Shown here: piece after piece, positions 1 through 63,731 of the stretch
Numbering within the stretch: the stretch's first letter is position 1
How the letters are laid out: each line of letters begins with the position of its first letter
Virus record (IMG/VR): IMGVR_UViG_3300033148_002931
Coordinates: 1 to 64,000 of that record
Reading direction: 5' to 3' (one strand)
Length of the DNA stretch: 64,000 bases
Source: a virus
Translations under genes and position numbers: made by a program
The notes under the pieces: generated by a model
Seen by the model: only the letters and a program-made list of their open reading frames with translations
The model's database searches: none
Told to the model about the DNA's origin: nothing

Positions 1-2067
1 ATGTCAATGGAAGATCACTTTTGGATGAGCGAACCATCATTAGAAAGAAGAGAAGTTGATGCTCTTTCTTACTTAGAAATGGGCGGAATAGCTTATTATG
101 GCCCTGTTTCAGATAAGTTTGATGCTTTTATGGGTTGCGCCCCTGGTACAGAGCCTAGCTTACAAGGCAAGATGGAAGAGCATCAAGGATTAGCTTTAGC
201 ATCACAATCTCAGCTAAATGCCTTAGTCGGTAATGTATATGCTTGGAAGAATGCTCAATATCCTAGATTGAATTATTATTTATCTAGTGCATTTAAGAAT
301 TTAGATATAGCACCACAAGAAATAATATCTGCTAACCTGTCTATTGATGATACACCCAAACGAATAACATTTACAGAAAAACCATTTATTCCACAAGAAA
401 TAACTTGGACATACAAGTCTAAAAACAAAACCCTATTGCAGTCAGTCACAATGCACGAGGTAACAGAGGGATTTGATGGAGATACAATAATCATTCCTGA
501 TGAGCCACCTAAAGATATTCCACCCAGAGATACTATCCCACCAATTATCATACCTCCAATTATAGTTATTCCGCCAACATTGAGTGGGGATATATTTGTA
601 GCTTCCGCTAATGCGATAAAAACAACTCCTGATTTTGCAGTCTCTACTGGTACTACTTGGATAGATAAAACAAGTAATCTAACTGGCACTTTTATTATAG
701 ATGCTTGTTATGATGAAACTGATACCAACAATGATACATTCTATGTTGCAGCCGATAGTGGAATATATAAAACAACAAATTTCCAAACTGACCCTCCCAC
801 TTGGACTAAAGTGTATGATGCGGGTACAGGTAGTGCTAGTAGTTTAGACCCACAAGTTAGACGAGTAGTAATGTCTCCTGCTAGTGGAAATCAAGTATAT
901 GCTTTGCTTAATACAAGAGAAGCGGTGGCATCATCTACAGCGAAGACGTATGTTTTGTATTCTAGCAATGCTGGTGGGAGTTGGGGACAAACAGAATTAG
1001 AAACTAATCCTGATGCAGTAGAGGATTTCAAAGTTGATAAACAAACAACCTCTATTAATAAACCGGCAGATTGGTGGTATGGACATGGGTATACTACTCA
1101 TAGACGAGAAGATGAACATGATGATGTGAACCCTTGGGGTGTAGCTATAAATGTTATTAATCCTAATGCTAATCTTAGTAATTTTGCTTTTGAATATAGA
1201 ACAAGTCAAGGAATTCCCGCCCCCGAAAGTGCTTATATAAACTCATTTTTTAATAGTACTCCAACACAAAAAGCATTGCCTTTAACTGGGATAAATAAAT
1301 TGTATCTAACACCAGCCGAAGAAATAGAAATGGGTGCTTATTTTAATACCTATTTTGGTAATGGAGCATGGATTGAGGCGGCAGAATCCGATAGTGGGAA
1401 AATGATAAAAGACCCTGATAGAGTAAGATTAGGTATTGGTTTAGCCGGTGCAAAAGACCCACCCTATGTGCAAGGGATGATAGGTTATGTCTTTTGGAGA
1501 ATGACTAATTATGATACAGCAAGAGCAATAGATTGTGGGCAACAAGATGCTCTAGTTGTTTACGTTGGTGGTGAGCTAGGTATATATAGATCGGAAGATG
1601 GTGGCGCAACTTTTGAGTTACTTATAGAAGACAAAATAGTACATGACATAGAATGTTATGTTCCTCAACCTCCTTATGATCCACAAACAAAGTGTTATAG
1701 AGATAATGGTGGAGCATATACAACATTTGATACTTATTTAATGGGTAATGCTTGGCATATAGAAACTGACCCGTTGGATGTTCCGTTGAGAATTGCTAGC
1801 CATGATACAGATGGATGGCCTGCTTTCTTGTTATCTCATAATGGAGGAGAAGATTTTAATTTAGTAAAATGTGCAGATTCGTCTGAAACAGTTAGACAGA
1901 CTGATATAACTTTGGGAAGGTCTGTTAAACAAAAAGATGATGTTATATATTGGTTAGAAGCAAGCGATATTTGTTTCTCGGATGACGATGGAATGACTAA
2001 GACATCTCGTAAAGGAGATTGGACTGATTTTGGTAGTCCTGTGGTTATTATTCCACTCAATGAGTAG
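1..2067 (+). CDS. Tail-associated protein with sialidase-like Asp-box repeats (5' end may lie outside window)
   Basis: The reading frame is open from the first base, so the true start may be upstream. The product has an N-terminal structural part, a Pro/Ile-rich linker at about residues 165-193, and a C-terminal region carrying several Asp-box (BNR) type motifs, S-x-[ND]-x-G-x-[ST]-[WF]. Examples are SSNAGGSWG near residue 320, SEDGGATFE near 530 and SHNGGEDFN near 610. Asp boxes mark beta-propeller folds of the sialidase/VPS10 type. With a long fibre gene directly downstream, a host-surface-binding tail tip or baseplate role is the simplest reading. No catalytic residues could be assigned, so enzyme activity is not claimed. 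Confidence 0.7.
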   Translation: MSMEDHFWMSEPSLERREVDALSYLEMGGIAYYGPVSDKFDAFMGCAPGTEPSLQGKMEEHQGLALASQSQLNALVGNVYAWKNAQYPRLNYYLSSAFKNLDIAPQEIISANLSIDDTPKRITFTEKPFIPQEITWTYKSKNKTLLQSVTMHEVTEGFDGDTIIIPDEPPKDIPPRDTIPPIIIPPIIVIPPTLSGDIFVASANAIKTTPDFAVSTGTTWIDKTSNLTGTFIIDACYDETDTNNDTFYVAADSGIYKTTNFQTDPPTWTKVYDAGTGSASSLDPQVRRVVMSPASGNQVYALLNTREAVASSTAKTYVLYSSNAGGSWGQTELETNPDAVEDFKVDKQTTSINKPADWWYGHGYTTHRREDEHDDVNPWGVAINVINPNANLSNFAFEYRTSQGIPAPESAYINSFFNSTPTQKALPLTGINKLYLTPAEEIEMGAYFNTYFGNGAWIEAAESDSGKMIKDPDRVRLGIGLAGAKDPPYVQGMIGYVFWRMTNYDTARAIDCGQQDALVVYVGGELGIYRSEDGGATFELLIEDKIVHDIECYVPQPPYDPQTKCYRDNGGAYTTFDTYLMGNAWHIETDPLDVPLRIASHDTDGWPAFLLSHNGGEDFNLVKCADSSETVRQTDITLGRSVKQKDDVIYWLEASDICFSDDDGMTKTSRKGDWTDFGSPVVIIPLNE

Positions 2068-8325: not shown

Positions 8326-8339
8326 TTCAAAAATAAAAT

Positions 8340-17734: not shown

Positions 17735-17771
17735 ATCAAAGAAAGGAAGGAATAAGTAATTCAATTATACC

Positions 17772-42535: not shown

Positions 42536-42608
42536 AGAAAACAGCAACTCCGGTTAAACCATTATAGGTGTCGGATATAACAATTATTGGTAAATATTGG
42601 AGGTAATT

Positions 42609-43811
42609 ATGTCCGATTTATCGGGTGAAAAAGTATTAAATCTTGGTGCAGACGCGCAAAAAGAGAAATCTTTTATTGCATCTACTGAGGCGGGAGTTGT
42701 AACACGCGCGACTGATCCAGTTATTAGTCCAACTTACAGCACTCCAGGTGACTTTGCCGCTCAATATCCTCAACCATTAGACCCAACTGAAATTTTGGCG
42801 ATGTGTGATGAGATTACTCTTTATCGACACATTCCAGAATTACGAACTGGTTTGAAACAGGATATGTGGCGTGAAATGGATGAGCTAGACTTTACTTCTG
42901 GCTCTACTTATATTGCTTTTGCGGATGGTTATTGCCCAGAAGAATATGAGCACGATGGTGACAATATTACTATTACATTAAAGAATCTTGGTACTAAGAA
43001 ATCTTTAGGCATTTCTGATCTAATGCACTCATCTTCTGTGGCAATGGGTTATGGTGATGCTATCAACGCTCTCAATCCTGGTTTTCCTTCTAGTGAGGGA
43101 TTACCTGGTGGGCTAGATATGGCGGCTTTCCAACGTCAAACAATAGCAGACTTGAAAGAGAAAGAAGTAACCCTCGGAATGGCATTGACGCTGAACGGTT
43201 TAGATGATATGTTAATCAATGGTGATACCAATACTAACTCTTTGGAGTTTGATGGTATAGAATATTGGGCAGCCAATCAATCTTGTACCATGCACACTAA
43301 TAGTAATACCGCATCTGGTACTTTCTCTGCAAGCAGTTTCGATCGTTTCTTAGCAGAAAGTTGTGCTAAGGCACAGGAAGTTTGGGGACATCCTCAGGCT
43401 ATTCAGGAAATGATGGCGGGCTATTTCCAGCTTGGTTATGCCGGTAGCCAGATAGTTAATCATGCGAGTGGTAATCGTCTTACTCCAGGGTTCAACTTTG
43501 GCGGAGAGGTCAATACTGGAGTTGGTGCTCTCAAGGTGGTTGCAGATAACAACTTTGCAAGAGTAGATATTGGAGGTGGGGGCTTCCAGGCATCTCTGTG
43601 GACATTGAGAACTACACATAATGGGCAGCCATTAGTATATCGTAGAACACAGATACCACTGAGTATGAAAGACCTTGTTCCTGGTTGTACTGCAATTAGT
43701 TTTGAGATTTGGACTAAGACAGCCCTTATTATCAAGGCTTGTTGTGCACAAGGACAATATACTTCTCAGTTTACTGGAAGGATAGTCTCGACCTGCGCTA
43801 CAATTGGGTAA
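42609..43811 (+). CDS. Major capsid protein, HK97-fold type
   Basis: 400 residues. Start at 42609 is set by GGAGG 5 bp upstream; the TTG at 42597 overlaps it. Features such as LINGDTNTNSLEFDGIEYW near residue 200 are seen in HK97-fold capsid proteins. The order portal, protease/scaffold, capsid supports the call. It ends just before a 13-bp hairpin. Confidence 0.85.
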   Translation: MSDLSGEKVLNLGADAQKEKSFIASTEAGVVTRATDPVISPTYSTPGDFAAQYPQPLDPTEILAMCDEITLYRHIPELRTGLKQDMWREMDELDFTSGSTYIAFADGYCPEEYEHDGDNITITLKNLGTKKSLGISDLMHSSSVAMGYGDAINALNPGFPSSEGLPGGLDMAAFQRQTIADLKEKEVTLGMALTLNGLDDMLINGDTNTNSLEFDGIEYWAANQSCTMHTNSNTASGTFSASSFDRFLAESCAKAQEVWGHPQAIQEMMAGYFQLGYAGSQIVNHASGNRLTPGFNFGGEVNTGVGALKVVADNNFARVDIGGGGFQASLWTLRTTHNGQPLVYRRTQIPLSMKDLVPGCTAISFEIWTKTALIIKACCAQGQYTSQFTGRIVSTCATIG

Positions 43812-46832: not shown

Positions 46833-47687
46833 ATGAAAATTGCAGTTACAGGTTGGAAGGGAAGATTGGGAAGTCAATTAGTAGACAATGATTGTTATAT
46901 TCTTGATGTAGATATAACTGATAAAGCAGATGTTTATTCTAAAATAAAGTTATTAGCGCCAGATGTTGTAATCAATTGTGCCGCTATTACTGATGTAGAT
47001 GGTTGCGAAAGTGAAGATGGTTATACAAAAGCATTAGACGTAAATTATTTAGCAGTAGAGAATGTGCGTTGCGCTTGTAAGGAATACGATAGCAATTTAA
47101 TTCAAATAAGTACAGATTATATATTTGGTAGTAATAATGGCGCATATTCCGAGAAGAACAGACCATTAGCACAAAGTAATGGTGAACCAGTAAATAATTA
47201 TGGATGGAGCAAATTGGGTGGTGAGGATGTATTATTAACTACAAATATTTATAATAATTTGATAGTACGTACTACTGGTTTATATGGCAATCCGGATAAA
47301 CATGATTTTCTTCAATTAATACAAGAAACTGTGGGGGAAGGGAAAGAACTCAAAGTAACAAAAGAATTAATTGGAAATCAAACATATATTCCTCATTTAG
47401 CAAAGGCATTAATTTATGTTACTAACAATATTGAAATTATACGCAATAATAAAGTTTTGAATATTGCATCCGAAGATATAATTAGTAGATATGAATTTGC
47501 TCTTGCTATTGCCGATATATTTGGATATAATAAAGAATTGATTATTCCGTGTCTCAATAGTGAAATAGTAGAATGGAAAGCTAAGAGACCAAAAAAAGCA
47601 GGGCTAAAGACTTCTCTAGCAAAGAAATTAGGTGTGCCAATTTATACTATTGCAGAAGGGCTAAAAGAGTGTCGGAAAATAATATAG
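46833..47687 (+). CDS. RmlD-like NAD(P)-dependent sugar-nucleotide reductase
   Basis: 284 residues. Nucleotide-binding TGWKGRLG at residue 6, NCAAITDVDGCE near residue 50, STDYIFG near 92 and catalytic YGWSK near 128 (YxxxK). This matches extended SDRs of the dTDP-4-dehydrorhamnose reductase type, which reduce a 4-keto-sugar nucleotide. With the dehydrase gene 1.3 kb downstream, a deoxysugar pathway is suggested, but the NDP and sugar are not known. Confidence 0.82.
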   Translation: MKIAVTGWKGRLGSQLVDNDCYILDVDITDKADVYSKIKLLAPDVVINCAAITDVDGCESEDGYTKALDVNYLAVENVRCACKEYDSNLIQISTDYIFGSNNGAYSEKNRPLAQSNGEPVNNYGWSKLGGEDVLLTTNIYNNLIVRTTGLYGNPDKHDFLQLIQETVGEGKELKVTKELIGNQTYIPHLAKALIYVTNNIEIIRNNKVLNIASEDIISRYEFALAIADIFGYNKELIIPCLNSEIVEWKAKRPKKAGLKTSLAKKLGVPIYTIAEGLKECRKII

Positions 47688-47908
47688 AAACTTATATACA
47701 AGTGAGCGCTTGGGCGATGGATTTTTGGTATGCTTTTTTGGATCGTCCAAAATTTCTTAGGTGGATTGCTAAAATAGCTATGGGTAAATATGCTTATAGA
47801 GAATTATATGAGATAAAAGTTTGTTTTGAAAATGTTGATCTTTTGCCTAATATTGGGTATTCTCTTAAACATATGGATTACCACAAAGATAAGGTGGATT
47901 TAGGATGA
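47669..47908 (+). CDS. 79-residue protein, function unknown
   Basis: GTG start with AGAAGGG upstream, overlapping the reductase gene by 19 bp. Trp/Tyr-rich (SAWAMDFWYAFLDRPKFLRWIAK). Coupled to the next glycosyltransferase. Function unknown. Confidence 0.55.
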   Translation: MSENNIETYIQVSAWAMDFWYAFLDRPKFLRWIAKIAMGKYAYRELYEIKVCFENVDLLPNIGYSLKHMDYHKDKVDLG

Positions 47909-48618
47909 AAGTTAGTATCATAATACCGTTTTATAACTTATGGAATATGACTCATCAGAGATTGATGGAATTATTCAAATATGTTCCTGAACCATTAGAA
48001 ATTGTATTAGTAGACGATTGCTCTACTGATTTGGATTGCAAGTCCGGCATGGCTTGGTGGCAAAAATCTCCTATTCAGCATGATGTAAAGTATGTATGGA
48101 ACAAAGAGAACATTGGATTTGGTGGTTCTAATAATAGAGGGGCAAAGGCGGCTACTGGTGATATATTGATATTCCTCTCAAATGATGTTGTTATCAGTGG
48201 AGACTTTGTTCCTCGGATTGTGCAAATACTTCAAGAAAACAAAGATGTTATAATAGGAGGGCGAATAATTTATTGGGATAGTGGTTGGAACACTTTAGAT
48301 ATATACGGAAACAAAACCATTATCATGTATCCTGAAGGATGGTTAATTGCTTGTACTAAAGAAATGTGGAATAGAATTGGTGGTTTCGACAGGATATATG
48401 GCAAATTTGATGCAGAGGATATAGATATTGGCGCTTGGGCTGTTTATAATGATATTCCATTAATTGATTTAGAATCTCCATATTTGAATCATATATCTGG
48501 GCAAACTATTTATAAGATTTATCCTGATAGAATGGATTATACTAAACGAAACATTATAGCCTTGAAGCAAAAGTGGACATCATTGTTAGAGGAGAAATTT
48601 GTCGATGACACTAAATGA
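47905..48618 (+). CDS. GT2 family glycosyltransferase
   Basis: 237 residues. VSIIIPFYN at the N-terminus, LVDDCSTD near residue 35, NIGFGGSNNRGAK near 71 and FLSNDVV near 90: the GT-A fold with its metal-binding region. ATGA coupling to the previous gene. The FDAEDID motif near residue 170 fits the family's catalytic ED. Confidence 0.85.
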   Translation: MKVSIIIPFYNLWNMTHQRLMELFKYVPEPLEIVLVDDCSTDLDCKSGMAWWQKSPIQHDVKYVWNKENIGFGGSNNRGAKAATGDILIFLSNDVVISGDFVPRIVQILQENKDVIIGGRIIYWDSGWNTLDIYGNKTIIMYPEGWLIACTKEMWNRIGGFDRIYGKFDAEDIDIGAWAVYNDIPLIDLESPYLNHISGQTIYKIYPDRMDYTKRNIIALKQKWTSLLEEKFVDDTK

Positions 48619-48949
48619 GGAAACTAAATTTGCAAAAGAAATAGGGGCAATGCAATCAACTCTTACTATACAAACTAAAGCGATTAATCAATTATCACTA
48701 GATTTGAAAGAATATATTAAAAATCAATCTGAATTTGCTCAGGAATGTGCTAGAGCACATTATAGAATTAGTACCCATGATAAACAATTAGATACCCTTA
48801 CTATATGGGCTAGGGGTATAGATAAAATAATACCTTCGTTAGTATCTACTAATAAGATATTGATATTTATTGGTAGTGGATTAGGGCTTTCTATCATAGG
48901 ATTGATTTGGGCATTAATTACTGGACAAATAACATTAGTATTTTCTTAG
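48605..48949 (+). CDS. Coiled-coil protein with C-terminal membrane anchor
   Basis: 114 residues; ATG at 48605, though TTG at 48599 is also near GGAG. Long amphipathic N-terminal region, then one membrane segment (about 86-113). Layout resembles XhlA-type proteins, but this is weak. Overlaps the glycosyltransferase end. Confidence 0.5.
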   Translation: MTLNEETKFAKEIGAMQSTLTIQTKAINQLSLDLKEYIKNQSEFAQECARAHYRISTHDKQLDTLTIWARGIDKIIPSLVSTNKILIFIGSGLGLSIIGLIWALITGQITLVFS

Positions 48950-48956
48950 GAAAATA

Positions 48957-50240
48957 ATGAATAAAAAAGATGAAATATTAGAATTAGTAAATAAATATTG
49001 GTTGCCAAAGCAAGATAAATTATTTATACCAGGTGTATCTCCAATACCAGCCTCTTTCCCTACAATAAATAGTGAAGATATTGCATCTGTAATAGATATT
49101 ACACTTGATGGTTGGTTTACTGAATTCAAAGCATGTGCCCAATTTGGCAAGGCATTAGAAAAATACACGGGCAAGAAACATGCTGTTTTAGTCAATTCTG
49201 GTAGTTCTGCTAGTCTGGTAGCAATGTCTACGATGTTAGAGGGTAGGAGAGAGAAGTTTGTACTAACAACTGCGTTAGCATTTCCAACAACAGTAGCACC
49301 CATTTATCAAAATAACAAAATTCCTATCTATATTGATGTGGATATAGAAACTCTTTCTCCTAATTGGGAACAGGCTAGAGATATGCTAGACGAACATGGA
49401 GATGATATAGCTGGATCAATCTTTACTCATACACTTGGATTTCCTTATGATGAGCAGAGGTTTAGTGTTGCATTAAAAGAGAAAGATAAATTTTTAATAA
49501 GCGATTCGTGTGACTCTCTTGGGGCTAAGGTGGGAATAAATGGAGAGCATGCTGGAAGTTTTAGTGATGCAATGACATTATCATTCTTCCCCGCCCATCA
49601 GGTGACTTGTGGTGAGGGTGGCGCTATTTTATTTGATGATGATGAGTTATATAAGAAGGCAAGAAGTTATGTTAATTGGGGACGCTCATGTTATTGCTTA
49701 CCCGGACAAAGTAATGCTTGCGGAAAGAGATTTACATGGGAAAACAGAGGAACATTACCTGAGGGCTATGACCATAAATATATCTTTGATAGACTTGGGT
49801 ATAATCTGAAAATGACAGAATGGCAAGCTGCATTAGGTTTATCTCAGATAAATAAAATAGATGAATTTGTAGACATAAGACAATCAAATTATATTGATTT
49901 GAAGTTTAGAATTTGGCAACATATTTTTTTGCCCTCAATTAAATTATCTCATACATCCCCATTTGGTGTACCAATTATGGTACACAAAGATGCCCCATTT
50001 TCCGCTAACGAAATGATAAAGTTCTTAGAGTCAAAGAAAATCTATACAAGAAGGTTCTTTGCTGGTAATATTACAAGACAACCCGGATATATGAACTTGC
50101 CTTATATTTATAAAGATTTAACCAATACAGATTATATAATGAATAGTGGGTTCTGGATAGGTTGTCATCCAGGAATAACAAGACAGATGCTGGATTATAT
50201 GATAGAGATGATAAATGAATTTGTTGAAAAGTATGAATAA
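48957..50240 (+). CDS. CDP-4-dehydro-6-deoxyglucose-3-dehydrase (E1)-like enzyme
   Basis: 427 residues of the DegT/DnrJ/EryC1 fold. The PLP lysine is replaced by His214 (SFFPAHQVTCGEGG), the hallmark of E1/RfbH/DdhC, which removes the 3-hydroxyl in making 3,6-dideoxyhexoses. A C-x-C-x7-C cluster (RSCYCLPGQSNACGKRF, about 240-256) plus an upstream Cys matches the [2Fe-2S] site. LPEGYDHKYIFDRLGYNLKMT follows as in RfbH. No E3 reductase or CDP-glucose genes are in the window, so host partners would be needed. Confidence 0.82.
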   Translation: MNKKDEILELVNKYWLPKQDKLFIPGVSPIPASFPTINSEDIASVIDITLDGWFTEFKACAQFGKALEKYTGKKHAVLVNSGSSASLVAMSTMLEGRREKFVLTTALAFPTTVAPIYQNNKIPIYIDVDIETLSPNWEQARDMLDEHGDDIAGSIFTHTLGFPYDEQRFSVALKEKDKFLISDSCDSLGAKVGINGEHAGSFSDAMTLSFFPAHQVTCGEGGAILFDDDELYKKARSYVNWGRSCYCLPGQSNACGKRFTWENRGTLPEGYDHKYIFDRLGYNLKMTEWQAALGLSQINKIDEFVDIRQSNYIDLKFRIWQHIFLPSIKLSHTSPFGVPIMVHKDAPFSANEMIKFLESKKIYTRRFFAGNITRQPGYMNLPYIYKDLTNTDYIMNSGFWIGCHPGITRQMLDYMIEMINEFVEKYE

Positions 50241-50368
50241 TGTATTCAGTAATTGATACCATAATGTTTGTGATTATTCCTTATATGATTTTTATAGCAA
50301 TACTAATTCTTCCTCTAGCAATGATTTGGAAGATTATAAATATGATTTTTAGAAAGGAGAAAATGTGA
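50240..50368 (+). CDS. 42-residue membrane miniprotein
   Basis: Its ATG overlaps the previous stop by one base (TAATG) and its end overlaps the next GTG start. One hydrophobic helix (about 5-32) with a basic C-terminus (IINMIFRKEKM). The next gene's AAAGGAG lies within its last codons. Function unknown. Confidence 0.5.
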   Translation: MYSVIDTIMFVIIPYMIFIAILILPLAMIWKIINMIFRKEKM

Positions 50369-51288
50369 GAGTAGTTCTTAGCGGAATATTTTATCCATTT
50401 GCAATGCTTTCCTTTTTCTGGAGAGCATTAGAACGCAGAGAAGATGTAGAATTATGTACTGTGGGGCCATTCACAGGAACGTGGATACCTTGGAATCATT
50501 CTATGGATTTATCTCCAAAATATGTTAGAACACCAACAGTACCATTACCAAAAGAGGCAATACAACAACAGTTACCAGCAAAGTTTGTAGAAAACTTATT
50601 GCCAGGGAAATTCAAGAGCCCTGACTTATGGCTTCAGGTAGATGCCGGATGGCATGTAACTACTAAACCAGAAGCAACAGTAGTAGCATTAGTCAAAACC
50701 GATCCGCATGCTATTCCGAAGAAATATTATGATATTCCCGCAAGCTATTCTGATAGAGTATTTACAATGCAGACGCCATATCTCATTCCTGGCGAATTCT
50801 ACTTGCCTTATGCTTATGATCCAGAGATACATTATCCAATGAAAGAAGTAAAAAAGAAATATGATGTTTGCATGGTTGGATTATTATATCCAGAAAGAAA
50901 AAGAATACTAGATATGGCAAAGGCAAGAGGATTAAGTACATATTACAGCATAGGTGAAGTTTATGATGAGTATAGACTTCGCTATAATGAAAGCAGATGT
51001 GCAATAAATTGGTCTAGTGCTAAGGACTTGCCTACACGAGTGTTTGAATATGCAGCAATGGGTATTCCTATGGTAACAAATAGAGTACCCGACCTTAATA
51101 CATTCTTTGTAGAAAAAGATCACTTCCTCGGTGCAGATACAATAGAAGAGGCGATGGAACAAATAATGTTTATTATAGAGAACCCTGAAGAAGCTAATAA
51201 GATGGCTTATGCTGCACAAAGAAAAGTAAAAGCTCATACTTGGAAACATAGAATAAATCAAGTATTAGAAATATGTAAGTTAGTATAA
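50365..51288 (+). CDS. CgeB/GT4-like glycosyltransferase
   Basis: 307 residues, GTG start with AAAGGAG 6 bp upstream. C-terminal RVFEYAAMGIPMVTNRVPDLNTFF (about 222-245) is the nucleotide-sugar-binding EAxAxGxPV-type segment of GT-B enzymes of the CgeB group. N-terminal half is the acceptor-side domain. Substrate unknown. Confidence 0.72.
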   Translation: MRVVLSGIFYPFAMLSFFWRALERREDVELCTVGPFTGTWIPWNHSMDLSPKYVRTPTVPLPKEAIQQQLPAKFVENLLPGKFKSPDLWLQVDAGWHVTTKPEATVVALVKTDPHAIPKKYYDIPASYSDRVFTMQTPYLIPGEFYLPYAYDPEIHYPMKEVKKKYDVCMVGLLYPERKRILDMAKARGLSTYYSIGEVYDEYRLRYNESRCAINWSSAKDLPTRVFEYAAMGIPMVTNRVPDLNTFFVEKDHFLGADTIEEAMEQIMFIIENPEEANKMAYAAQRKVKAHTWKHRINQVLEICKLV

Positions 51289-51299
51289 GGAGAAAGAAT

Positions 51300-51650
51300 A
51301 TGAAAGATGTTAAAGATAAGATAAAGACATTGAAAGTAATTAAACATGCTGGAATACCAACAGAAACAACTACATTAGATGGGAAGAAAGTGTATAGACA
51401 AGAAAAGATATATTTGCCTAGTTATGGTAGATATGTAATGTGTGCTCCTTATGATAACCATTTTATATACTTGACAGATACAAAAGGTTGGGCAATTATG
51501 TGCACGTGTGGAAGTGCAGGAGTAATTTCAGGCTATAATGCTTATAAAAATGATGCTTCCCCTACAAGTGGAGAAGGAATAGTGCCAGGGGAGTTGCTTG
51601 TTTGTTATACTCATGCAAATACTGGGAGGCACGCTGATGGCACAAGTTAA
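51300..51650 (+). CDS. 116-residue protein, function unknown
   Basis: AAGGAG 8 bp upstream. Beta-rich, with MCTCGSAGVISGYNAYKN near residue 67, a Gly/Cys-rich loop. Similar sequences occur as uncharacterised phage proteins. Function unknown. Confidence 0.55.
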   Translation: MKDVKDKIKTLKVIKHAGIPTETTTLDGKKVYRQEKIYLPSYGRYVMCAPYDNHFIYLTDTKGWAIMCTCGSAGVISGYNAYKNDASPTSGEGIVPGELLVCYTHANTGRHADGTS

Positions 51651-52204: not shown

Positions 52205-52861
52205 ATGAAAATATATTTGATGGCGCAGGGTAAAGGTAGTAGATGGGAATGGAATAAGGGAAGAAAGTCTGCTAAGTATAAACAATTAGTCAAAGTTGGT
52301 GATGAACCATTGATTGTTAGAACTCTAAGACAATTACAAGATAGAGGAGAGACTAATACTTTAGTTATTGCTGATGGAGATTTCTTTCCAAAAGTAAAAG
52401 AATATGCTATGCTCCAAACTAATCCTGAGCCAGTAGGTACAATCAATGAAGGAATATTGTCTTTGTATCGAGGTTGGACGGAGGAGAAACAGTCTGTTTT
52501 TTTATTGGGTGATGTGGTATTTAGCAACCAAGCATTAGATACTATATTGCAAAGTAATCGTAGCTTTGCAATATTTGGTAGGAAAGGAAGAAATAAATAT
52601 ACAAGTAAAGTAGCCAGTGAAATATTTGCAGTTTCTGTTAGAGGTTCTAAAGTAAAGTGGCTTAAAGAATTATTAATGATACTCAAACGAAAGGAAGCAC
52701 CTAAGTTATGGGATATGTATGATGTAGTTAAATATCAACAGCCAAACCCAATGATAAAAATTGATGATTATACAGATGATGTAGACAGTCCAGGAGAATA
52801 CCAGGAGTGGTTCAAAACATTAGAAAAATTAGCCCTAGAGGATGATGCAAATTGGCAGTAA
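52205..52861 (+). CDS. Sugar nucleotidyltransferase (MobA/GalU-like fold)
   Basis: 218 residues. N-terminal MAQGKGSRW...KYKQLVKVGDEPLIVRTL gives the GxGxR nucleotide-binding loop and the Lys used by NTP transferases; FLLGDVVF near residue 99 and TDDVDSPGEY near 196 supply metal-binding acidics. The enzyme would activate a sugar-1-phosphate, or a related substrate, as NDP-sugar for the nearby glycosyltransferases. Contains an AAACAG-T-CTGTTT word at 52487. Confidence 0.75.
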   Translation: MKIYLMAQGKGSRWEWNKGRKSAKYKQLVKVGDEPLIVRTLRQLQDRGETNTLVIADGDFFPKVKEYAMLQTNPEPVGTINEGILSLYRGWTEEKQSVFLLGDVVFSNQALDTILQSNRSFAIFGRKGRNKYTSKVASEIFAVSVRGSKVKWLKELLMILKRKEAPKLWDMYDVVKYQQPNPMIKIDDYTDDVDSPGEYQEWFKTLEKLALEDDANWQ

Positions 52862-53694
52862 TAGATTGTTTTAGTTTTTTCAATGAACTTGAATTATTGA
52901 GAATACGTTTACATGAGTTATCTGATGTAGTAGATAAATTTGTATTAGTAGAGGCTACCAAGACACATTCGGGGTTAGATAAAGTATTACATTACGAAAT
53001 ACATAAAGAGGAATTTGTAGAATTTCAAGATAAGATTGTTCATGTTATTGTAGAAGATATGCCAATGACTAAAAAAGAGATAGAAAACGCTATTACACCA
53101 CAGGATAGACATTGGCTAGATACTGGTTATCAGCTAGGTGATAATTGGGTAAGAGAGCGATTTCAAAGAAACGCAATAATGAGGGCATTACAAGATACTA
53201 ATCCTAGAGATATTATTATTATCGAGGATGCGGATGAGATGGTTAGACCAGAGATAATATCTAATCTTGATGCTACAATGGTGGCTGGTTCTAATGCAGT
53301 GGGACAGACACTGCACTCTTATTATCTCAATTGGGAATGTGTAAATATGCCTTGGTGGGGAAGTAAAATATTGCATAGGGAATTTGTAACTAATCCTAGT
53401 GAGCATAGATTTCATACAGTTGCCTCTCAGTATATTCATAATGGTGGTTGGCATCTCAGCTATCTGGGTGGCATAAGTGCTATTCAAGATAAGATAAAAG
53501 CTTTTGCGCATCAAGAGTTCAATATTCCTGAAGTGTTCGATGTGATGGAACAAAAGCTTGCACAACAGAAGGATGGGATTGGTAGATTGTATGAATATGA
53601 GGTAGTGCCAATAGATGATAGTTACCCAAAGTATATACAAAATAACTTAAGAGAGTTTGAACATTGGATGTATAATGAACACTACAAGATTTAA
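52852..53694 (+). CDS. GT17 family glycosyltransferase
   Basis: 280 residues, TTG start (MAVIDCFSFFNELELLRIRL is the family's conserved N-terminus). FVLVEATKTHSG near residue 30, IIEDADEMVRPE near residue 123 and LNWECVNMPWWG near 161 fit GT17, known for beta-1,4-GlcNAc transfer to mannose in eukaryotes and also present in phages and bacteria. Overlaps the nucleotidyltransferase by 10 bp. Confidence 0.8.
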   Translation: MAVIDCFSFFNELELLRIRLHELSDVVDKFVLVEATKTHSGLDKVLHYEIHKEEFVEFQDKIVHVIVEDMPMTKKEIENAITPQDRHWLDTGYQLGDNWVRERFQRNAIMRALQDTNPRDIIIIEDADEMVRPEIISNLDATMVAGSNAVGQTLHSYYLNWECVNMPWWGSKILHREFVTNPSEHRFHTVASQYIHNGGWHLSYLGGISAIQDKIKAFAHQEFNIPEVFDVMEQKLAQQKDGIGRLYEYEVVPIDDSYPKYIQNNLREFEHWMYNEHYKI

Positions 53695-54376
53695 TCCTAC
53701 CCCGAATGGTGCATTACACTTAGGGCATGTTTATAATATACTTTTCAATGAACAATTTGCTCATAATAACGGCGGAAAATTTTATGTGCGGTTTGAGGAC
53801 ACTTGTCAAGCTCTTATTACAGAGAATATACCTCCAGAACATATAAAACCAATTATGCAATTACAAAGAAATGATATAGAATGGTTGGGAATAGATGTTG
53901 ATGTTTGGGATACTCAAGCTATCTGGAAGGATGAGGCAGATAAAAAGATAAGCCAATATATAAAACTTGATAAGTTACGTATACCTTATCCTCACAATAT
54001 GCCGGTATCTATTGGGACAGTAGATGAATTTTATCCATATACACCTTACCATACTGCGTTTCGAGTGGTTCTGGATAATATGATTGGTATCACTCATGTT
54101 ATTCGTGGTAATGAGTTTTTGACTGAGTATTCTTTATATTACTTTTTCTGCGATTTATTTGGTTATGATGTACCACATTTTCTTTATATACCGCGGTTAG
54201 TTAGTAGTTCTGGTGATATTTCTAAGTCTCATGGTGGTTACTCTATTGCAGAATTACGCGCTTCGGGGTATAATCCAAAAGAAATAAGGAAACTACTAAG
54301 AGAATCTTGTTTGAAGTGGCCCAATAATGGTTGGACATTCCAAAATCTTAAGGTAAACCCACGGGTTAATTTATGA
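53675..54376 (+). CDS. Stand-alone GluRS-like catalytic core (GluQ-RS/YadB-like)
   Basis: 233 residues from ATG 53675. TRFNPTPNGALHLGH at the N-terminus carries the HIGH-type signature of class I GluRS, RFEDT near residue 38 matches the RIEDTD segment, GITHVIRGNEFLTE near 144 is also GluRS-typical, and SGDISKSHGG near 182 is the KMSKS loop. The anticodon-binding domain and, partly, the stem-contact fold are missing, as in GluQ-RS, but it is shorter than that enzyme (about 300). It may attach glutamate to something other than a canonical tRNA. It overlaps GT17 and is ATGA-coupled to the ABC permease. Confidence 0.82.
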   Translation: MNTTRFNPTPNGALHLGHVYNILFNEQFAHNNGGKFYVRFEDTCQALITENIPPEHIKPIMQLQRNDIEWLGIDVDVWDTQAIWKDEADKKISQYIKLDKLRIPYPHNMPVSIGTVDEFYPYTPYHTAFRVVLDNMIGITHVIRGNEFLTEYSLYYFFCDLFGYDVPHFLYIPRLVSSSGDISKSHGGYSIAELRASGYNPKEIRKLLRESCLKWPNNGWTFQNLKVNPRVNL

Positions 54377-55287
54377 GACGAGTATTAGGATTAATAATTA
54401 TAAACATAATTTTTATTGTAATTCTTAGTATTGCTACACCTCATTTCTTTAGTAAAAGTAACCTGATAGTATTAGTAGACAACATGGCATTAGAGGCTAT
54501 TGTTTTGTCTGGATATACATTATTATTAGTAGGTGGAAACTTCGATCTTTCTGTTGATGGTATTGTGGCATTAAGTGGAGTTTCTGCTGGGCTTATGATG
54601 AACTCTGGTATACATTGGATAATCGCTGTTATAGCTTCTTTATTGCTGGCAGGGATAATTGGGGCAATCAATGGAGTAATAGTAACTAAGATTGGTATTA
54701 ATGGATTAATTGCTACATTAACAACATGGTGGATATGTCTTGGGATTACATTTGGAATGACTAAAGCACTTGCACCTTATGGTTTTCCTGAAGTATTTCA
54801 GTGGTTCGGACAGGTGAGAGTTCTTGGTTTCCGCTCTATTATTTTTTATGCTATCGTGATTACTATAATTTTATCTATTGTCTTACATTTCACAAAGCTA
54901 GGATCACATCTTTATCTTAGTGGTGATAATAAGCAAGCATCAGAAATGATGGGAATAGATACTGCGAGATTAGGAATAATGACATATGTATTAGTAGGTC
55001 TATTGGCGGGATTTGTTGGAATTATGCTAACATCTAAACTAAATGCTGCTAGTCCTATGGCAGTAGATGGAATGGCATTGCGAGTTATCGCGGCGTCTGT
55101 GTTAGGAGGTGCAAATTTAAGTGGTGGTAAAGGTTCGATTGTAAGTGGATTATTAGGTTTATGTTTGATGGGCATTCTTAGTAATGCCATTATTCAATTA
55201 GGTATATCCCCCTATTTTCAAAAAGCTATATTGGGTGGGGTATTATTAGTAGCAGTTTTAACAGAAAAAATAAGGAGAACAGAATGA
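54373..55287 (+). CDS. RbsC-type sugar ABC transporter permease
   Basis: 304 residues with about eight to ten hydrophobic segments. SGDNKQASEMMGI near residue 197 is the cytoplasmic EAA-like coupling loop, and VLGGANLSGGKGSIVSGLLG near 240 is the conserved motif of the ribose/xylose/galactose permease family. ATGA overlaps at both ends tie it to the GluRS-like and binding-protein genes. It forms the membrane pore of a pentose/hexose importer. Confidence 0.9.
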   Translation: MRRVLGLIIINIIFIVILSIATPHFFSKSNLIVLVDNMALEAIVLSGYTLLLVGGNFDLSVDGIVALSGVSAGLMMNSGIHWIIAVIASLLLAGIIGAINGVIVTKIGINGLIATLTTWWICLGITFGMTKALAPYGFPEVFQWFGQVRVLGFRSIIFYAIVITIILSIVLHFTKLGSHLYLSGDNKQASEMMGIDTARLGIMTYVLVGLLAGFVGIMLTSKLNAASPMAVDGMALRVIAASVLGGANLSGGKGSIVSGLLGLCLMGILSNAIIQLGISPYFQKAILGGVLLVAVLTEKIRRTE

Positions 55288-56231
55288 AATTACGATTATT
55301 AGTTTATATTTTGTTAGTTGTTTTATTAGCGGGATGTGTTGGAGCTAATCAGCCAGAAGTAGTAGGTGTAGAAGAAAGTAGAACTGGAACTTATTACTTT
55401 CTAGCAGCGAATAATGCTGATCCATTCTATATTCCTGGCGTAGCCGGATTTACTGATGCAGCCGATGCGGTCGGAATGAAGTCGGAATTTGTTGGGCCAA
55501 TGGAAGCAAGCACCAGTGAACAGATGAAAACATTTGAAGAGTTATTGGCTAATCCGAAAACGAAAGGTATTTTCTGGTATCCAATGGATACTAATGTTGG
55601 CGAGCCTTTAGTAAAAGAGGCAATTGCCAAAAATATACCATTTGTAATTGGTGCTGCCGACAGTGCGTTTAAGACTCGTAATGCTTTTATTGGTTATGAT
55701 AATACAGTTTTGGGAAACCAGGCTGCCGAGTGGGCAGCTAAGTTAATTGATTGCAAAGGTTCTGTTGGTACAATTGCTACCATTGGTGATAGTTTGACTG
55801 AACGTACAGAAGCATTTAATGCGCATATTGCAGAACTTTGCCCTGATGTAGAAGTACGTGAACGAGCATCGCATGATGGTAGTGCGGTTACAGCTAGTGC
55901 AACGATTGATGCTTATGTTGTTGCATATCCAGACTTGACGTTACTATGGTTTGCTGATGGAACATCAAGTCAAATGGTGCAGAACTGGAAAGATAAACAG
56001 GCACAAGGTATCAAGACACTATTCTTAGCAATGGATATGCCTCCTTCTACACTGGAAGCAGTAAGGGATGGTGTGTATGTCGGAAGCGTGGGGCAGGATA
56101 CTTATACAGAAGCCTTCTGGGGTGTAATGTTACTTGACGCGTTGAGTAAAGGTCAACGTGTTCCTGATACATTGTATTTATCGGTTATTATGGTTGATAA
56201 AAATAATGTAGATCAGTATATTGAGAAATGA
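55284..56231 (+). CDS. RbsB-type sugar-binding lipoprotein
   Basis: 315 residues. Signal peptide with lipobox LLAGC at about residues 15-19 gives a membrane-anchored binding protein. YYFLAANNADPFYIPGVAGF near residue 36, IFWYPMD near 96 and FIGYDN near 135 are typical of the periplasmic-binding protein 4 family (ribose/galactose-like). ATGA coupling on both sides. The sugar is unknown. Confidence 0.88.
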   Translation: MKLRLLVYILLVVLLAGCVGANQPEVVGVEESRTGTYYFLAANNADPFYIPGVAGFTDAADAVGMKSEFVGPMEASTSEQMKTFEELLANPKTKGIFWYPMDTNVGEPLVKEAIAKNIPFVIGAADSAFKTRNAFIGYDNTVLGNQAAEWAAKLIDCKGSVGTIATIGDSLTERTEAFNAHIAELCPDVEVRERASHDGSAVTASATIDAYVVAYPDLTLLWFADGTSSQMVQNWKDKQAQGIKTLFLAMDMPPSTLEAVRDGVYVGSVGQDTYTEAFWGVMLLDALSKGQRVPDTLYLSVIMVDKNNVDQYIEK

Positions 56232-56974
56232 CCCTTCTTGAAATGAGGAATATCTCCAAGTCTTTTGGGGATATTCATTCTCTTATTGATATAAACCTTG
56301 CTATACATCCAGGAGAAGTAGTCGGCTTACTTGGAGATAATGGTGCTGGCAAGTCTACTCTTATAAAGATAATGACAGGTTATTATCAACCTAATAATGG
56401 TGGTGAGATATACTGGAAGGGTGAGAAAGTAAAACTGACTGTTTCTAAAGGTAGAGATTTGGGAATAGAAACAGTTTATCAGGAACGCGCGTTGGCGGAG
56501 CAACAAGCTATTTGGCGTAATATTTTCATGGGGAGAGAGATAACTAGAAATGGGTTTATGAAAATAAAGGAAATGCAAGAAAAAGCTAATGACTTGATGG
56601 ATAGTATGGGATATAGTGGTTCTTCTATTACATCAACAAAGTTAGTAAACACTATGTCTGGAGGAGAAAGGCAAGGTATAGCTATTACTAGGGCATTATA
56701 CTTTCAGGCGGAACTGATAATCCTGGATGAACCAACCATGGGATTATCTATTGCGGAGACACGAAAAGTCTTGGAGTTTGTGAAGAATATAAAAGATGCA
56801 GGAAAATCTTGTGTATTCATTGACCACAACATTTTCCATGTTTATCCAGTTGCTGATAGAATAGTTGTATTAGATCGTGGGGTGGTAGCGGGTGAATATT
56901 ATAAGGATGATTTGACGTTAGATGAACTAACGGATAAATTGTATCATGTAGCACGTACAGGAACAATGTTATGA
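56228..56974 (+). CDS. Single-domain RbsA-type sugar ABC ATPase
   Basis: 248 residues. Walker A GDNGAGKST near residue 36, signature TMSGGERQG near residue 142, Walker B LIILDEPTMGLS near residue 163, switch His in FIDHN near 197. RbsA proteins usually fuse two such domains (about 500 residues); this has one, as in FrcA-type systems, so it would act as a homodimer. ATGA overlaps bind it to the binding protein and the glycosidase gene. Confidence 0.9.
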   Translation: MTLLEMRNISKSFGDIHSLIDINLAIHPGEVVGLLGDNGAGKSTLIKIMTGYYQPNNGGEIYWKGEKVKLTVSKGRDLGIETVYQERALAEQQAIWRNIFMGREITRNGFMKIKEMQEKANDLMDSMGYSGSSITSTKLVNTMSGGERQGIAITRALYFQAELIILDEPTMGLSIAETRKVLEFVKNIKDAGKSCVFIDHNIFHVYPVADRIVVLDRGVVAGEYYKDDLTLDELTDKLYHVARTGTML

Positions 56975-58005
56975 ATTTTATGGTAGATGATGAATTTTTA
57001 TTATTAATGAGCATTAATCCTGATTTAGATGTTCCTGGATATAATACCCAAATTCTTACTATAGACGAACGCAAAAAATTGCGGGATGTGGGGATACAAA
57101 CAGTATTAGAATATCTAAATTGGGAACAGATAAACCCCTCATTAAATCAATATAATTTTGAAGAGATTAGTAATATATTATATAGAAATCGAGAAGCTAA
57201 CATGAAAATTATTTGTCCAATAACGAATTGGAATTTTCCTGCCTGGATGCCAGACGAATGGTTTGCCAAACACCAAAGTGGAGAAATTGATCGCAGTGTA
57301 CTTTCTATATGGCATGAAGATGCACAAAGTGTTGCTGATGAATATTATCAGAACTTAATAAATTATTTTGGGGCTAATGATGTATTATTTATTTGGGGCG
57401 ATTGGCAAGGCGGAGAGGGAATTTATCCCGCCGGGTCTTGTTTTTATGATGACGCCGCGTTAAATGATTATAAACAAGTTTATGGCACTTCTGCTTATCC
57501 TGATATTAATACCCAAGAAACATTAGATTGGTATGGCAAGAAAATTATAGAGCATTCTCTTAAAAAACAACAAATATTTTACCCTCAATGTAATGAGATT
57601 TGGAATATGCAACAATTTTTGATGGACACTTGGACAAAGGGATTTGGAAACTTTGTTATACCAGAAACATTCCAGGCATTTCGTAATAAATATCCTGATG
57701 ATTCAATAGTATTCTTGCAATATACTTATTTTGATGATGCACATTATAAGATACCTAATGAGGAGTTTGTAGATAATATCAAAAATACATATAATAGTGA
57801 AGTAATTGTAGAAGCACATTTTGCCCAAGGATTAAGAGAAACAACACCAAAAGCTATTGCCAAAGGATTTCGTGGGCAAATTTGTAGTTTATTACATGCA
57901 CAAGCAGGCTATTTTGCGTTTGAAGATTGGATGTTGGAAGAAGTAAAAAAATCTAATGACTTGTGGAGAGAGGCAAGAATAAATGAAAATAATAACAATA
58001 GCTAG
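56971..58005 (+). CDS. Clan GH-A glycoside hydrolase (GH42-like)
   Basis: 344 residues, ATGA-coupled to the ABC ATPase. VGIQTVLEYLNWEQINPSLNQYNF near residue 35 is the early strand pattern of GH-A barrels, and LFIWGDWQGGEGIYP near residue 135 and VIVEAHFAQG near 278 are candidate Glu-bearing strands. No signal peptide, so the substrate is probably cytoplasmic, such as an imported oligosaccharide. Family assignment is tentative. Confidence 0.65.
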   Translation: MNFMVDDEFLLLMSINPDLDVPGYNTQILTIDERKKLRDVGIQTVLEYLNWEQINPSLNQYNFEEISNILYRNREANMKIICPITNWNFPAWMPDEWFAKHQSGEIDRSVLSIWHEDAQSVADEYYQNLINYFGANDVLFIWGDWQGGEGIYPAGSCFYDDAALNDYKQVYGTSAYPDINTQETLDWYGKKIIEHSLKKQQIFYPQCNEIWNMQQFLMDTWTKGFGNFVIPETFQAFRNKYPDDSIVFLQYTYFDDAHYKIPNEEFVDNIKNTYNSEVIVEAHFAQGLRETTPKAIAKGFRGQICSLLHAQAGYFAFEDWMLEEVKKSNDLWREARINENNNNS

Positions 58006-58726
58006 AACACTCAATGAGGAGCGGAATATAGAGAGGTTTTGTAATTCATATCAAAATATTTCTGACATGATTTTGGTGGCTGATGGTGGTAGTACCGATA
58101 ACACGATAGAGATTGCAAAATCTTTTCCAAACGTACAGGTAAGAGAATATACAGAGAAAATAGAATTAGAGAATGGGTTATGGCGTAATCCTGATTGGAA
58201 ACACATAAACTTTCTAATTGAATGGGCAGAAAATGAAGGCGCGGATTGGATAATGTTAGATGATTGTGACACTACTCCTAATTATTTACTTCAACAAGAT
58301 GGTAGAAATGCGTTACTAGAAACTGACCTATCATTTGTAATGACTGTAAGTCTTTTCTTATGGGGTGAAGATATGCACTTCCCAAGGTTATCTCGTGCAG
58401 GTATACATGCTGTTGGGCATATGGATTGGTATGCGGGGATATGGGCGTGGAGAACTAATCAAGAAATACGAGTGTATGGTGACCCACCACACTTTATGTT
58501 TGAGCGTAAGAGTAAACCTGGAATAATGGTAAATTTTGATACTGAAGATGGGTTGAAATTAATGCCTCCATATTGCAGATTACATAGAAATAGTCCTACG
58601 CCTGAAATAGCACAGGAGCGTCAGGATTATTACAAACAAAGTGGATTGATACCTGAGATGCTACACCCAATGGCTATTGGTGGAGCATTGGAGAAATTAC
58701 CAGAGTGGGCGAGGGATAATGAATAG
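57983..58726 (+). CDS. GT2-like glycosyltransferase
   Basis: 247 residues overlapping the glycosidase by 23 bp. IITIARTLNEERNIERF at the N-terminus and LVADGGSTDNTIEIAKSF near residue 30, then WIMLDDCDTTPN near 91 (DxD-like). A GT-A enzyme; substrate unknown. Confidence 0.8.
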   Translation: MKIITIARTLNEERNIERFCNSYQNISDMILVADGGSTDNTIEIAKSFPNVQVREYTEKIELENGLWRNPDWKHINFLIEWAENEGADWIMLDDCDTTPNYLLQQDGRNALLETDLSFVMTVSLFLWGEDMHFPRLSRAGIHAVGHMDWYAGIWAWRTNQEIRVYGDPPHFMFERKSKPGIMVNFDTEDGLKLMPPYCRLHRNSPTPEIAQERQDYYKQSGLIPEMLHPMAIGGALEKLPEWARDNE

Positions 58727-62155: not shown

Positions 62156-62836
62156 ATGAATGCTTATTATCCATTTACAACTCCATTAATCCTTACAGAT
62201 GATATATTTATTAATTATGGGGGTGGAACAGGTACTACAACTACAGCACAAAGACAGGCTGTTTATGCAATAGCAGAAGAATTTGTAGTCAGAGACATAA
62301 ATACTTTCTTATTGCCATATATAGTAACAGGAACTTATCCTCTTACTTATGATCTATTACCTATTATTCTTGATTATGGATATGTCAATAGTATAGAAGT
62401 TGTTAGGTTTATTGATACTGAAGAAGATATTTATTACACAATTAGTGGAACAGCCAATATTAAAGCAAGTCTACGTGATCCTGCAAGAGGAATACTGGAT
62501 ATACATTGGCTAATGGGTAACTATGCTGGTTGTGGTGCAACTTATCGAATGCCATATCAAGTACAAGTAGTATATAATGCTGGATTAGCTACGGGAACAG
62601 CTAATTCCCCTATATTTGAGCTTGCACTTACAACAATTGCAGACGAGTTCTTGAATGAAATAGAAGGATATGGTAATGAAGCACCCGGTGGCGTTGGAGT
62701 ACAACGGTATTTTAATCAACAATATAATGAAACAAGAGTAAAACTTCTCAGAACTACTTATGGTACATCTGCTAAGATGAACTTTGTGCATAAGTTATTA
62801 AGTAATTGGCGTAAGCCTAGATATATACGATTATGA
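62156..62836 (+). CDS. Head-tail connector protein, gp6-like position
   Basis: 226 residues. The order of this gene, a 125-residue gene and a gp10-like gene matches HK97/SPP1-type connector clusters. Helices around TTAQRQAVYAIAEEFVVRDI near residue 24 and the beta segment PYQVQVVYNAG fit adaptor proteins. Coupled by ATGA to the next gene. Confidence 0.65.
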   Translation: MNAYYPFTTPLILTDDIFINYGGGTGTTTTAQRQAVYAIAEEFVVRDINTFLLPYIVTGTYPLTYDLLPIILDYGYVNSIEVVRFIDTEEDIYYTISGTANIKASLRDPARGILDIHWLMGNYAGCGATYRMPYQVQVVYNAGLATGTANSPIFELALTTIADEFLNEIEGYGNEAPGGVGVQRYFNQQYNETRVKLLRTTYGTSAKMNFVHKLLSNWRKPRYIRL

Positions 62837-63210
62837 TAGCTGGATTAAATTTATTTTGTGATATTTGGCGCATGAATTATGCTGATGATGATACTGTTGG
62901 TGGTGCGGTTATTACTGGTACAGTAGTATATCAAAATATTGGGCTAAATATGCAAGAGTTACCGGTGGAACAATTATTGTTACAGCAAGGATTAGAGACA
63001 CAAAAGAGTTTCCGAGGTACTATTGCACCTGGTAACTTAGATGTTAGAGAAAGAGATGAAATAGAAATAACCTCACCATATAATCACCCATACTTTGAGG
63101 AGAGATTTCGTATTGTTAATGCTCGTCATTCCTCGTTTGTTCCTGATGATCCAAGGTCATATATAATGTTAACAATGGTAAGAAGTGTAAGAGCACACAG
63201 TCAACAATGA
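62833..63210 (+). CDS. Head-tail joining (stopper) protein
   Basis: 125 residues; mostly beta. RFRIVNARHSSFVPDDPRSYIMLTMVR at the end is typical of small head closure proteins. ATGA coupling on both sides supports a connector operon. Confidence 0.65.
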   Translation: MIAGLNLFCDIWRMNYADDDTVGGAVITGTVVYQNIGLNMQELPVEQLLLQQGLETQKSFRGTIAPGNLDVRERDEIEITSPYNHPYFEERFRIVNARHSSFVPDDPRSYIMLTMVRSVRAHSQQ

Positions 63211-63731
63211 GTTTAGTAGCTGTTGGTGGATTAAGTGATTTTGATGCTAGAGTATTGGCATTAATGGTTTGGATTGGTGACAAAGTTTATCGTTCCGCTG
63301 ATGCTAAAGCTAAGACACAGAGAATACGCTCTGCTATGAGTTTGGGGAATGCTTACAAATCAGGTGGTATTTATGGTATTGATATAACAGTAGATACAGT
63401 AAAAGCACCTGAGTTTATGGCTTATGAGTTTGGTTCTGGTTTACATCGAACTAAAGGTACACCAGGTACTTACCGAATCCCAGACAAGGAAAGTAAAAGT
63501 ATTTTAGCTTTTCATTGGGATAGTCATACTCCAGACTACCCAACAGGGAAAAAATATCTTGGTGAGGGTCGAGGTGGAAAGTTGTTGTTTGCTTATGTAG
63601 ACCATCCTGGCGTGAAGGCAGAGCCGATATTTGAACCAGCTTTCAATGAGGTAAAAGCAGTTGTTGGTGAAACAATAAGAGAAAGAATTGGTTTAGCTCT
63701 TGTATCTAGTTTCCGCGTAGAGATGTCATAA
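63207..63731 (+). CDS. HK97 gp10-like tail completion protein
   Basis: 174 residues. GIYGIDITVDTVKAPEFMAYEFGSG near residue 52, FVDHPGVKAEPIF-type segment YVDHPGVKAEPIFEPAF near residue 131 (conserved H-P-G-x-K-A..F), then an amphipathic C-terminal helix. This matches the gp10/neck family that joins head and tail. Confidence 0.78.
   Translation: MSLVAVGGLSDFDARVLALMVWIGDKVYRSADAKAKTQRIRSAMSLGNAYKSGGIYGIDITVDTVKAPEFMAYEFGSGLHRTKGTPGTYRIPDKESKSILAFHWDSHTPDYPTGKKYLGEGRGGKLLFAYVDHPGVKAEPIFEPAFNEVKAVVGETIRERIGLALVSSFRVEMS

Follow-up and report, generated by a model that had tools for sequence, protein, structure and literature searches.

The importer genes and the virus record

The stretch of DNA considered here (the window) makes up the first 64,000 of the 70,737 bases of the virus record IMGVR_UViG_3300033148_002931 in the IMG/VR database and carries genes for a predicted sugar-class ATP-binding cassette (ABC) importer, located between genes for a minimal GluRS-like enzyme and a glycosidase-like barrel protein. 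These five genes are the following:

53657..54376 (possible start at 53675), plus strand: minimal GluRS/GluQRS-like catalytic core (PF00749, 8.9e-28; HLGH and SKS motifs)
54373..55287, plus strand: RbsC/AraH-type ABC permease, 304 amino acids (PF02653, 1.2e-34)
55284..56231, plus strand: RbsB-type sugar-binding lipoprotein, 315 amino acids (PF13407, 4.1e-33)
56228..56974, plus strand: single-domain ABC ATPase, 248 amino acids (PF00005, 1.1e-29)
56971..58005, plus strand: glycosidase-like TIM barrel, 344 amino acids, of doubtful activity (PF02449, 21.5 bits against a cut-off of 21)

As proposed in a first-pass annotation made from the letters, the three importer open reading frames (ORFs) at 54373-56974 are intact and joined by ATGA overlaps, which are read at all four junctions of the chain (54373, 55284, 56228, and 56971). 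The Pfam scores of the three ORFs exclude a chance match, amounting to 120.1 bits for the permease (cut-off 26.8), 115.5 bits for the binding protein (cut-off 35.1), and 104.2 bits for the ATPase (cut-off 25). Key motifs are also present, namely GGANLSGGKGS in the permease, a lipobox-like LAGC in the binding protein, and Walker A, Q, SGGE, Walker B, and H in the ATPase, whose motif residues line up with those of bacterial single-domain ATPases in an alignment. The LAGC follows a hydrophobic stretch at the N-terminus of the binding protein and resembles the lipobox pattern. The proposed affiliation to the RbsC/RbsB/RbsA class holds for the permease and the binding protein, but not for the ATPase as a two-domain RbsA: the protein spans only about the first 241 of the 492-513 positions in the RbsA, XylG, AraG, and MglA models and is therefore of the single-domain type. 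The permease stays under the cut-offs of two NCBIfam models (AraH, 173.9 bits against 378; RbsC, 165.9 against 398) and gave no match to PDB sequences, either as single sequence or as profile, while an unnamed PHROGs family (phrog_27181) matches it at 1.6e-35; ABC ATPase families are also included in PHROGs. The binding protein was modeled with a predicted local distance difference test score (pLDDT) of 84.4, and its fold matches the arabinose-binding AraP with a Z score of 32.3 and a root-mean-square deviation (rmsd) of 2.3 over 278 residues. The best 50 fold matches of the model include arabinose, ribose, glucose/galactose, and autoinducer-2 binding proteins and do not single out one ligand. 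As judged from the sequences, a putatively complete sugar-class ABC importer encoded on a phage genome is supported.

The viral nature of the record is indicated by PHROG matches to a terminase (1.4e-39), a portal protein (2.6e-5), and a tape measure protein (5.8e-5), and RecA-, DNA polymerase-, helicase-, and primase-like ORFs are present on the opposite strand (the labels RecA, polymerase, RuvC, HNH, methyltransferase, and TnpB used in this text are our own reading of the sequences). The importer is situated inside a run of glycan genes coding for RmlD-like and DegT-like proteins and several glycosyltransferases, with a chain of overlapping genes running through it, and the guanine-cytosine (GC) skew is positive across the whole region of 44-64 kb. 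The importer genes sit in a viral genome, in the company of virion genes.

A view on known transport systems shows that the importers of the RbsABC/AraFGH type (CUT2 class) share with the window the PF13407 binding protein, the PF02653 permease, and an ATPase of the same ABC sequence group. In contrast to the phage-encoded ATPase, their ATPase contains two nucleotide-binding domains (about 500 amino acids), and no kinase, isomerase, or regulator was recognized beside the importer of the window. Single-domain sugar importers of the FrcABC kind resemble the window in having an ATPase of about 240-260 amino acids encoded near a permease and a binding protein, as seen at loci from Microvirga (L015), Rhizobium (L016), Haloterrigena (L017), and the Chloroflexi genome G005 (L021 and contig 118). 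These are bacterial or archaeal systems, however, whose permeases and binding proteins are far less similar to those of the window, and no GluRS-like or glycosidase-like match was obtained in their loci. The importer on contig 118 of G005 (L101) has a binding protein in which several almost identical domains are repeated within a single ORF.

Occurrence of the module in uncultured and sequenced phages

When IMG/VR was scanned with one profile each for ATPase, binding protein, and GluRS-like protein, 12 additional virus records containing all or some of the module were obtained, all of which were recovered by the GluRS-like scan alone, while single-protein scans with the permease, the ATPase, or the glycosidase-like protein gave no relative in IMG/VR. 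A PF02653 permease and the GluRS-like protein occur in the same cluster in 11 of these 12 records, the exception being L204, which ends inside the GluRS-like gene. Among the 15 virus records searched (the 12 plus L007, L008, and L003), 11 contain the permease and five the ATPase (L111, L113, L114, L115, and L200); since 12 of the 15 were found through module genes, these counts describe co-occurrence, not frequency. ATPases with conserved motifs are present in six virus records, including the window. The permease is accompanied by the binding protein and by glycosidase-like barrels (one or two) in nine of the 11 records (L111, L113, L114, L115, L200, L205, L208, L209, and L210), while the remaining two (L206 and L207) break off within the permease match or no more than about 0.5 kb from it, too soon for either gene. 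Three of the six records without ATPase carry another subfamily of the binding protein, with 22% identity to that of the window over the alignment and 25-30% over local stretches. As L205-L207 look like near copies, as do L208-L210 (judged from the same match values), and L204 resembles L114, the 12 records and the window represent about eight lineages.

PHROG matches near the module were obtained for portal, major head, neck, and tape measure proteins in L113, for portal and major head proteins in L210, and for a neck protein in L200, whereas two tested module neighbors in L205 and L111 gave none. A terminase was recognized by phrog_2 in two of the 12 records, eight of the other ten being shorter than 14 kb. 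In the 124-kb record L115, no terminase was detected by phrog_2, and only one PHROGs match, to a helicase/primase, resulted from ten of its 12 ORFs of at least 380 amino acids that were scanned; the viral status of L115 is given by its IMG/VR assignment only. The ATPase profile scan returned 77 loci, of which the 72 weaker ones beyond L111-L115 were used only as candidates for the ATPase tree. L112, with an ATPase of 47% identity, was left out of the counts, as its ATPase groups with rhizobial ones. As a separate observation, L115 carries a TnpB-like gene at 16759-17991, a few kb from the importer, and L210, a record without ATPase, contains between glycosyltransferase genes (8041-9000) an ORF that starts like a GIY-YIG nuclease and has many similar short repeats inside.

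One of these records, L111 (59,720 bases), encodes a permease, a binding protein, and an ATPase with 63, 68, and 70% identity to those of the window. Its terminase and portal proteins are 54% identical, its presumed RecA, polymerase, helicase, and primase match those of the window at 41-46%, and the tail genes match as well. The order of genes is the same in both phages, consisting of a family 17 glycosyltransferase (GT17), the GluRS-like protein, permease, binding protein, ATPase, glycosidase-like protein, and a family 2 glycosyltransferase (GT2), with insertions of a methyltransferase-like, an HNH-like, and a small ORF within the block of L111, and the importer block occupies a different point of the glycan cassette. 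Two of these extra ORFs, coding for an HNH-nuclease-like protein and a protein of 80 amino acids, separate the binding-protein gene of L111 from its ATPase gene (6097-6858), which gives the impression of a mobile gene having inserted into the operon.

The set of GenBank phages (50,697 records) gave no match in a DNA search, and protein searches recovered no relative of the binding protein (E 1e-3) or the GluRS-like protein (E 1e-6) of the window, of the binding protein of L208 (E 1e-6), or of the glycosidase-like protein of L113 (E 1e-4). This absence does not extend to the permease and ATPase families as such, which were matched in 24 records at E 1e-3 and 608 records at E 1e-10, respectively, all below 60% identity. 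The expectation of the first-pass annotation that full ABC importers are very rare in phages fits the sequenced isolates, but overlooks a conserved family among uncultured phages. Even among the GenBank records, two unannotated entries for Campylobacter phages (MG065691 and MG065686) speak against rarity, the matches to permease and ATPase lying no more than about 2 kb apart; as their permease identity of 37.1% is the same as that of E. coli records, they are taken as E. coli-like rbs genes, and these RbsC- and RbsA-like matches are perhaps host DNA. Similar matches occur in a 6-kb record named Escherichia phage and in Salmonella contigs filed as phages.

Phage-encoded sodium/glucose, nucleotide, and magnesium transporters have been recorded, as have viral ABC transporters in mimiviruses and related viruses and in entomopoxviruses, according to the parts of the article consulted (Greiner et al., 2018; PMC6163359). 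The consulted parts of a report on a built-environment virome (PMC10169181) attribute sugar ABC transporters to a provirus of Paracoccus and mention no module of the present make-up. The module appears undescribed in the titles and abstract openings searched, a search that most subscription journals and bioRxiv preprints fell outside. Familiar protein families are encountered here in a conserved viral context where they would not be expected.

Genomic setting, importer-less relatives, and kinship to cellular genes

The features of the record surrounding the module are the following:

1..114, plus strand: terminal repeat, the first 114 bases being an exact copy of the last 114 of the record
42597..43811, plus strand: putative major capsid protein, assigned from position and synteny (62 and 58% identity to L007 and L008); upstream border of the cassette
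46833..51650, plus strand: upstream glycan genes (RmlD-like, GT2, DegT-like, GT1, and an ORF of 116 amino acids), common to importer-less phages
52205..52861, plus strand: weak MobA-like nucleotidyltransferase (PF12804, 24.6 bits, under the cut-off of 27)
52852..53694, plus strand: GT17-like glycosyltransferase (PF04724, 4.1e-22); 58% identity in L111, there also near the module
57983..58726, plus strand: glycosyltransferase family 2-like (PF13704, 28.8 bits); 45% identity in L111 and 38% in L007
58921..61908, plus strand: downstream glycosyltransferases, common to importer-less phages
62156..63731, plus strand: putative head-tail connector region, its first two ORFs kept in L009 and L111; downstream border of the cassette

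The repeat at the ends of the record is compatible with a closed circle. No PHROG match was obtained for the putative capsid gene or the head-tail genes directly flanking the glycan cassette.

Two relatives as judged from the presumed capsid protein, L007 and L008, are contigs of one metagenome with glycan genes that are related to those of the window and similarly ordered. Neither PF02653 nor PF13407 matches were found in these records or in the more distant L003. The orthologs of 51300-51650 and 58921-59946 overlap each other in L008 and are separated by a single ORF of 94 amino acids in L007, while the window has 7.3 kb at the same junction, including the importer; the ortholog of 57983-58726 is located upstream in both relatives. 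The importer therefore represents a block added inside a shared phage cassette. The pattern specified beforehand as contrary evidence, namely close relatives without the cassette together with the same block on a bacterial chromosome, was encountered in its first part, in the form of these two phages, whereas no identical bacterial block was recovered by the searches performed.

The permeases and binding proteins of the main group of phages show 48-63 and 45-69% identity, respectively, to those of the window. The best bacterial permeases found reach 37-38%, the best bacterial binding proteins about 30%, and the best bacterial ATPase among the matches listed, encoded by the Chloroflexi locus L021, 55%; nearer bacterial relatives may exist beyond the genome-scan matches listed. 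Within the phylum of G005, six of 400 genomes gave a match to the binding protein at E 1e-15, with 25-29% identity. Among 74 permeases compared in a quick tree, those of the main-group phages (six rows) form one clade, supported at 99 in the Shimodaira-Hasegawa-like approximate likelihood ratio test (SH-aLRT), and the corresponding six binding proteins likewise form one (100/99). The permease clade adjoins a permease from Chloroflexota (SH-aLRT 95; the tree has long branches and was rooted at the midpoint), which is encoded together with a single-domain ATPase and sugar-binding domains. This position would be compatible with a derivation of the phage permeases from cellular genes. Holding all phage permeases together, including the group without ATPase, gave a better likelihood (P value of the approximately unbiased test, p-AU, 0.70), while the free quick tree splits them, and a single origin of all phage binding proteins, including the same group, received a p-AU of 0.36. 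As judged from the sequences compared, a single origin of all phage permeases is thus neither shown nor rejected. The six phage ATPases, in contrast, reject one clade (p-AU 0.00016), those of the window and L111 standing apart from the other four, and the ATPase of the window groups with those of Chloroflexi L021 and Microvirga L015 (SH-aLRT 95, quick tree). At least one ATPase lineage has therefore been gained or replaced separately, as would be expected if transport is selected. A host from the Chloroflexota would fit the phage.

Rough ratios of nonsynonymous to synonymous substitution rates (dN/dS) between L205 and L210 are 0.057 for the GluRS-like protein, 0.043 for the permease, 0.040 for the binding protein, and 0.115 for the glycosidase-like protein, compared to 0.070 for a neck protein, one glycosyltransferase being saturated. 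Between L113 and L114, the values are 0.102 (GluRS-like protein), 0.068 (permease), and 0.079 (binding protein), with the ATPase and one glycosidase-like gene saturated. The permease and binding protein appear to be under purifying selection, and the module genes look unlike decaying cargo.

Partner genes and possible role of the importer

The GluRS-like protein contains HLGH in all five aligned rows (the window and four other records); for the second signature, the window has SKS, whereas SKT or SKR is seen in the four other records. The proteins of L205, L208, and L210 read HIGH. As a profile, the protein gives matches to GluRS structures (3.8e-19 at best) and, at a weaker level, to GluQRS (4e-10, with no stretch passing alone). 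GluQRS is the best NCBIfam model for the protein of the window, which is the top scorer among five members scanned with this model, reaching 91.4 bits, far below the cut-off of 250. Like GluQRS, it consists of a GluRS-type catalytic core, apparently without the anticodon-binding part as judged from its length; unlike GluQRS, the phage proteins comprise 233-239 amino acids, are encoded in a glycan cassette, and fall below the curated cut-off.

The glycosidase-like gene, which had been described as fused to the chain, is a separate adjacent gene overlapping the ATPase gene by 4 bases. Its product just passes the gathering score of glycoside hydrolase family 42 over one short profile stretch, and 11 of 13 members match this family at E 0.001. 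The protein alone gave no match to PDB sequences, but the profile matches beta-galactosidases at about 5e-7, and the model is a TIM barrel (pLDDT 85.7) whose nearest folds among the 50 best rows are beta-amylase and GH35 enzymes (TMq 0.55-0.68, rmsd 5.7-7.8). The candidate catalytic residue Glu149 is conserved in 13 of 13 rows. The column of the second candidate acid is occupied by Glu in eight of 13 rows and by Gln in three; the window has His there and L111 has Met, each with a Glu two columns earlier. As judged from these residues, the protein may be a weak enzyme, an unusual enzyme, or a binding protein, and is possibly inactive.

We lean toward the view that the genes encode a functional phage sugar importer within a conserved module which supplies the synthesis of phage glycans in late infection. 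The module would consist of the minimal GluRS-like enzyme, the permease, the binding protein, often an ATPase, and the glycosidase-like barrel, encoded beside glycosyltransferases in a virion operon. The binding protein would be exported, usually lipid-anchored, and capture a small sugar, perhaps freed by the glycosidase-like protein. This sugar would be imported by the permease, working with an ATPase of the phage or of the host, and channeled into glycans decorating the virion or the host surface. This view is suggested by the same partner genes recurring in diverged phages. That transport takes place at all seems quite probable, and a sugar is nearly as good a guess for the cargo, while the use of the sugar for glycan synthesis rather than general metabolism, as suggested by the gene neighborhood, has slightly less than an even chance.

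Several observations weigh against this interpretation. No ATPase was found in six of the 11 permease records (L205-L210, of 5.5 to 40.3 kb and possibly fragments), and L007 and L008 retain the glycan cassette without the importer, which indicates that the glycan pathway does not always depend on it. In addition, the ATPase of the window is nearer to that of Chloroflexi (55%) than to those of L113, L114, L115, and L200 (39-44%), the His of its glycosidase-like protein replaces the second Glu of other members, and the high dS values (1.0-2.7 or saturated) render the dN/dS ratios rough and yield none for the ATPase.

Among the alternatives, the importer may belong to the nutritional auxiliary genes known from phages and feed the central metabolism of the host, the glycosyltransferase neighborhood being incidental; this suits a sugar-class binding protein and permease, but appears rather unlikely given that GluRS-like and glycosidase-like genes accompany the importer in several phages next to glycosyltransferases, and that no sugar kinase or catabolic gene was recognized among the ORFs of the window that were scanned. 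Still less probable is a surface function, by which the binding protein and permease in the host envelope would block or alter the adsorption of other phages, with transport being secondary. An exported binding lipoprotein would be suited to such a role, and the six records in which a permease was seen without an ATPase are in line with it, a binding protein being readable in four of these, whereas the conserved-motif ATPases in six virus records, belonging to two separate lineages, would hardly be kept for blocking alone. A chimeric assembly, or contamination of the record with bacterial DNA, might explain the bacterial type of the gene families and the importer-less relatives, but is very improbable in view of the end repeat of 114 bases, the genes overlapping through the importer, the consistently positive GC skew, the same gene order with insertions in the diverged L111, and the virion genes near the module in L113, L210, and L200.

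Phages are usually pictured as living on the existing contents of the cell, and a complete importer that is conserved and selected would mean that extracellular material is taken up by some phages during infection. The constant company of GluRS-like and glycosidase-like genes beside glycosyltransferases represents a testable gene set for the way in which uncultured phages may build glycans, and the core of an aminoacyl-tRNA synthetase may have found a new use here. By analogy with GluQRS and queuosine, a more far-reaching and quite speculative proposal is a self-contained phage pathway that would import a sugar, add glutamate or another amino acid by a GluRS-like enzyme acting without tRNA, and provide a decorated glycan for the virion or cell surface, with the permease and binding protein forming the core and ATPases being plugged in from cellular pools.

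Some further features of the window are located outside the cassette. An ORF of 306 amino acids among the tail-region genes (5869-6789) reads as a TIM-barrel glycosidase-like protein and has no Pfam match, RuvC-like and RecA-like ORFs on the minus strand overlap by about 120 bases (8825-8946), and a minus-strand gene for a GH25-type lysozyme (34079-34825, PF01183) likely encodes the endolysin.

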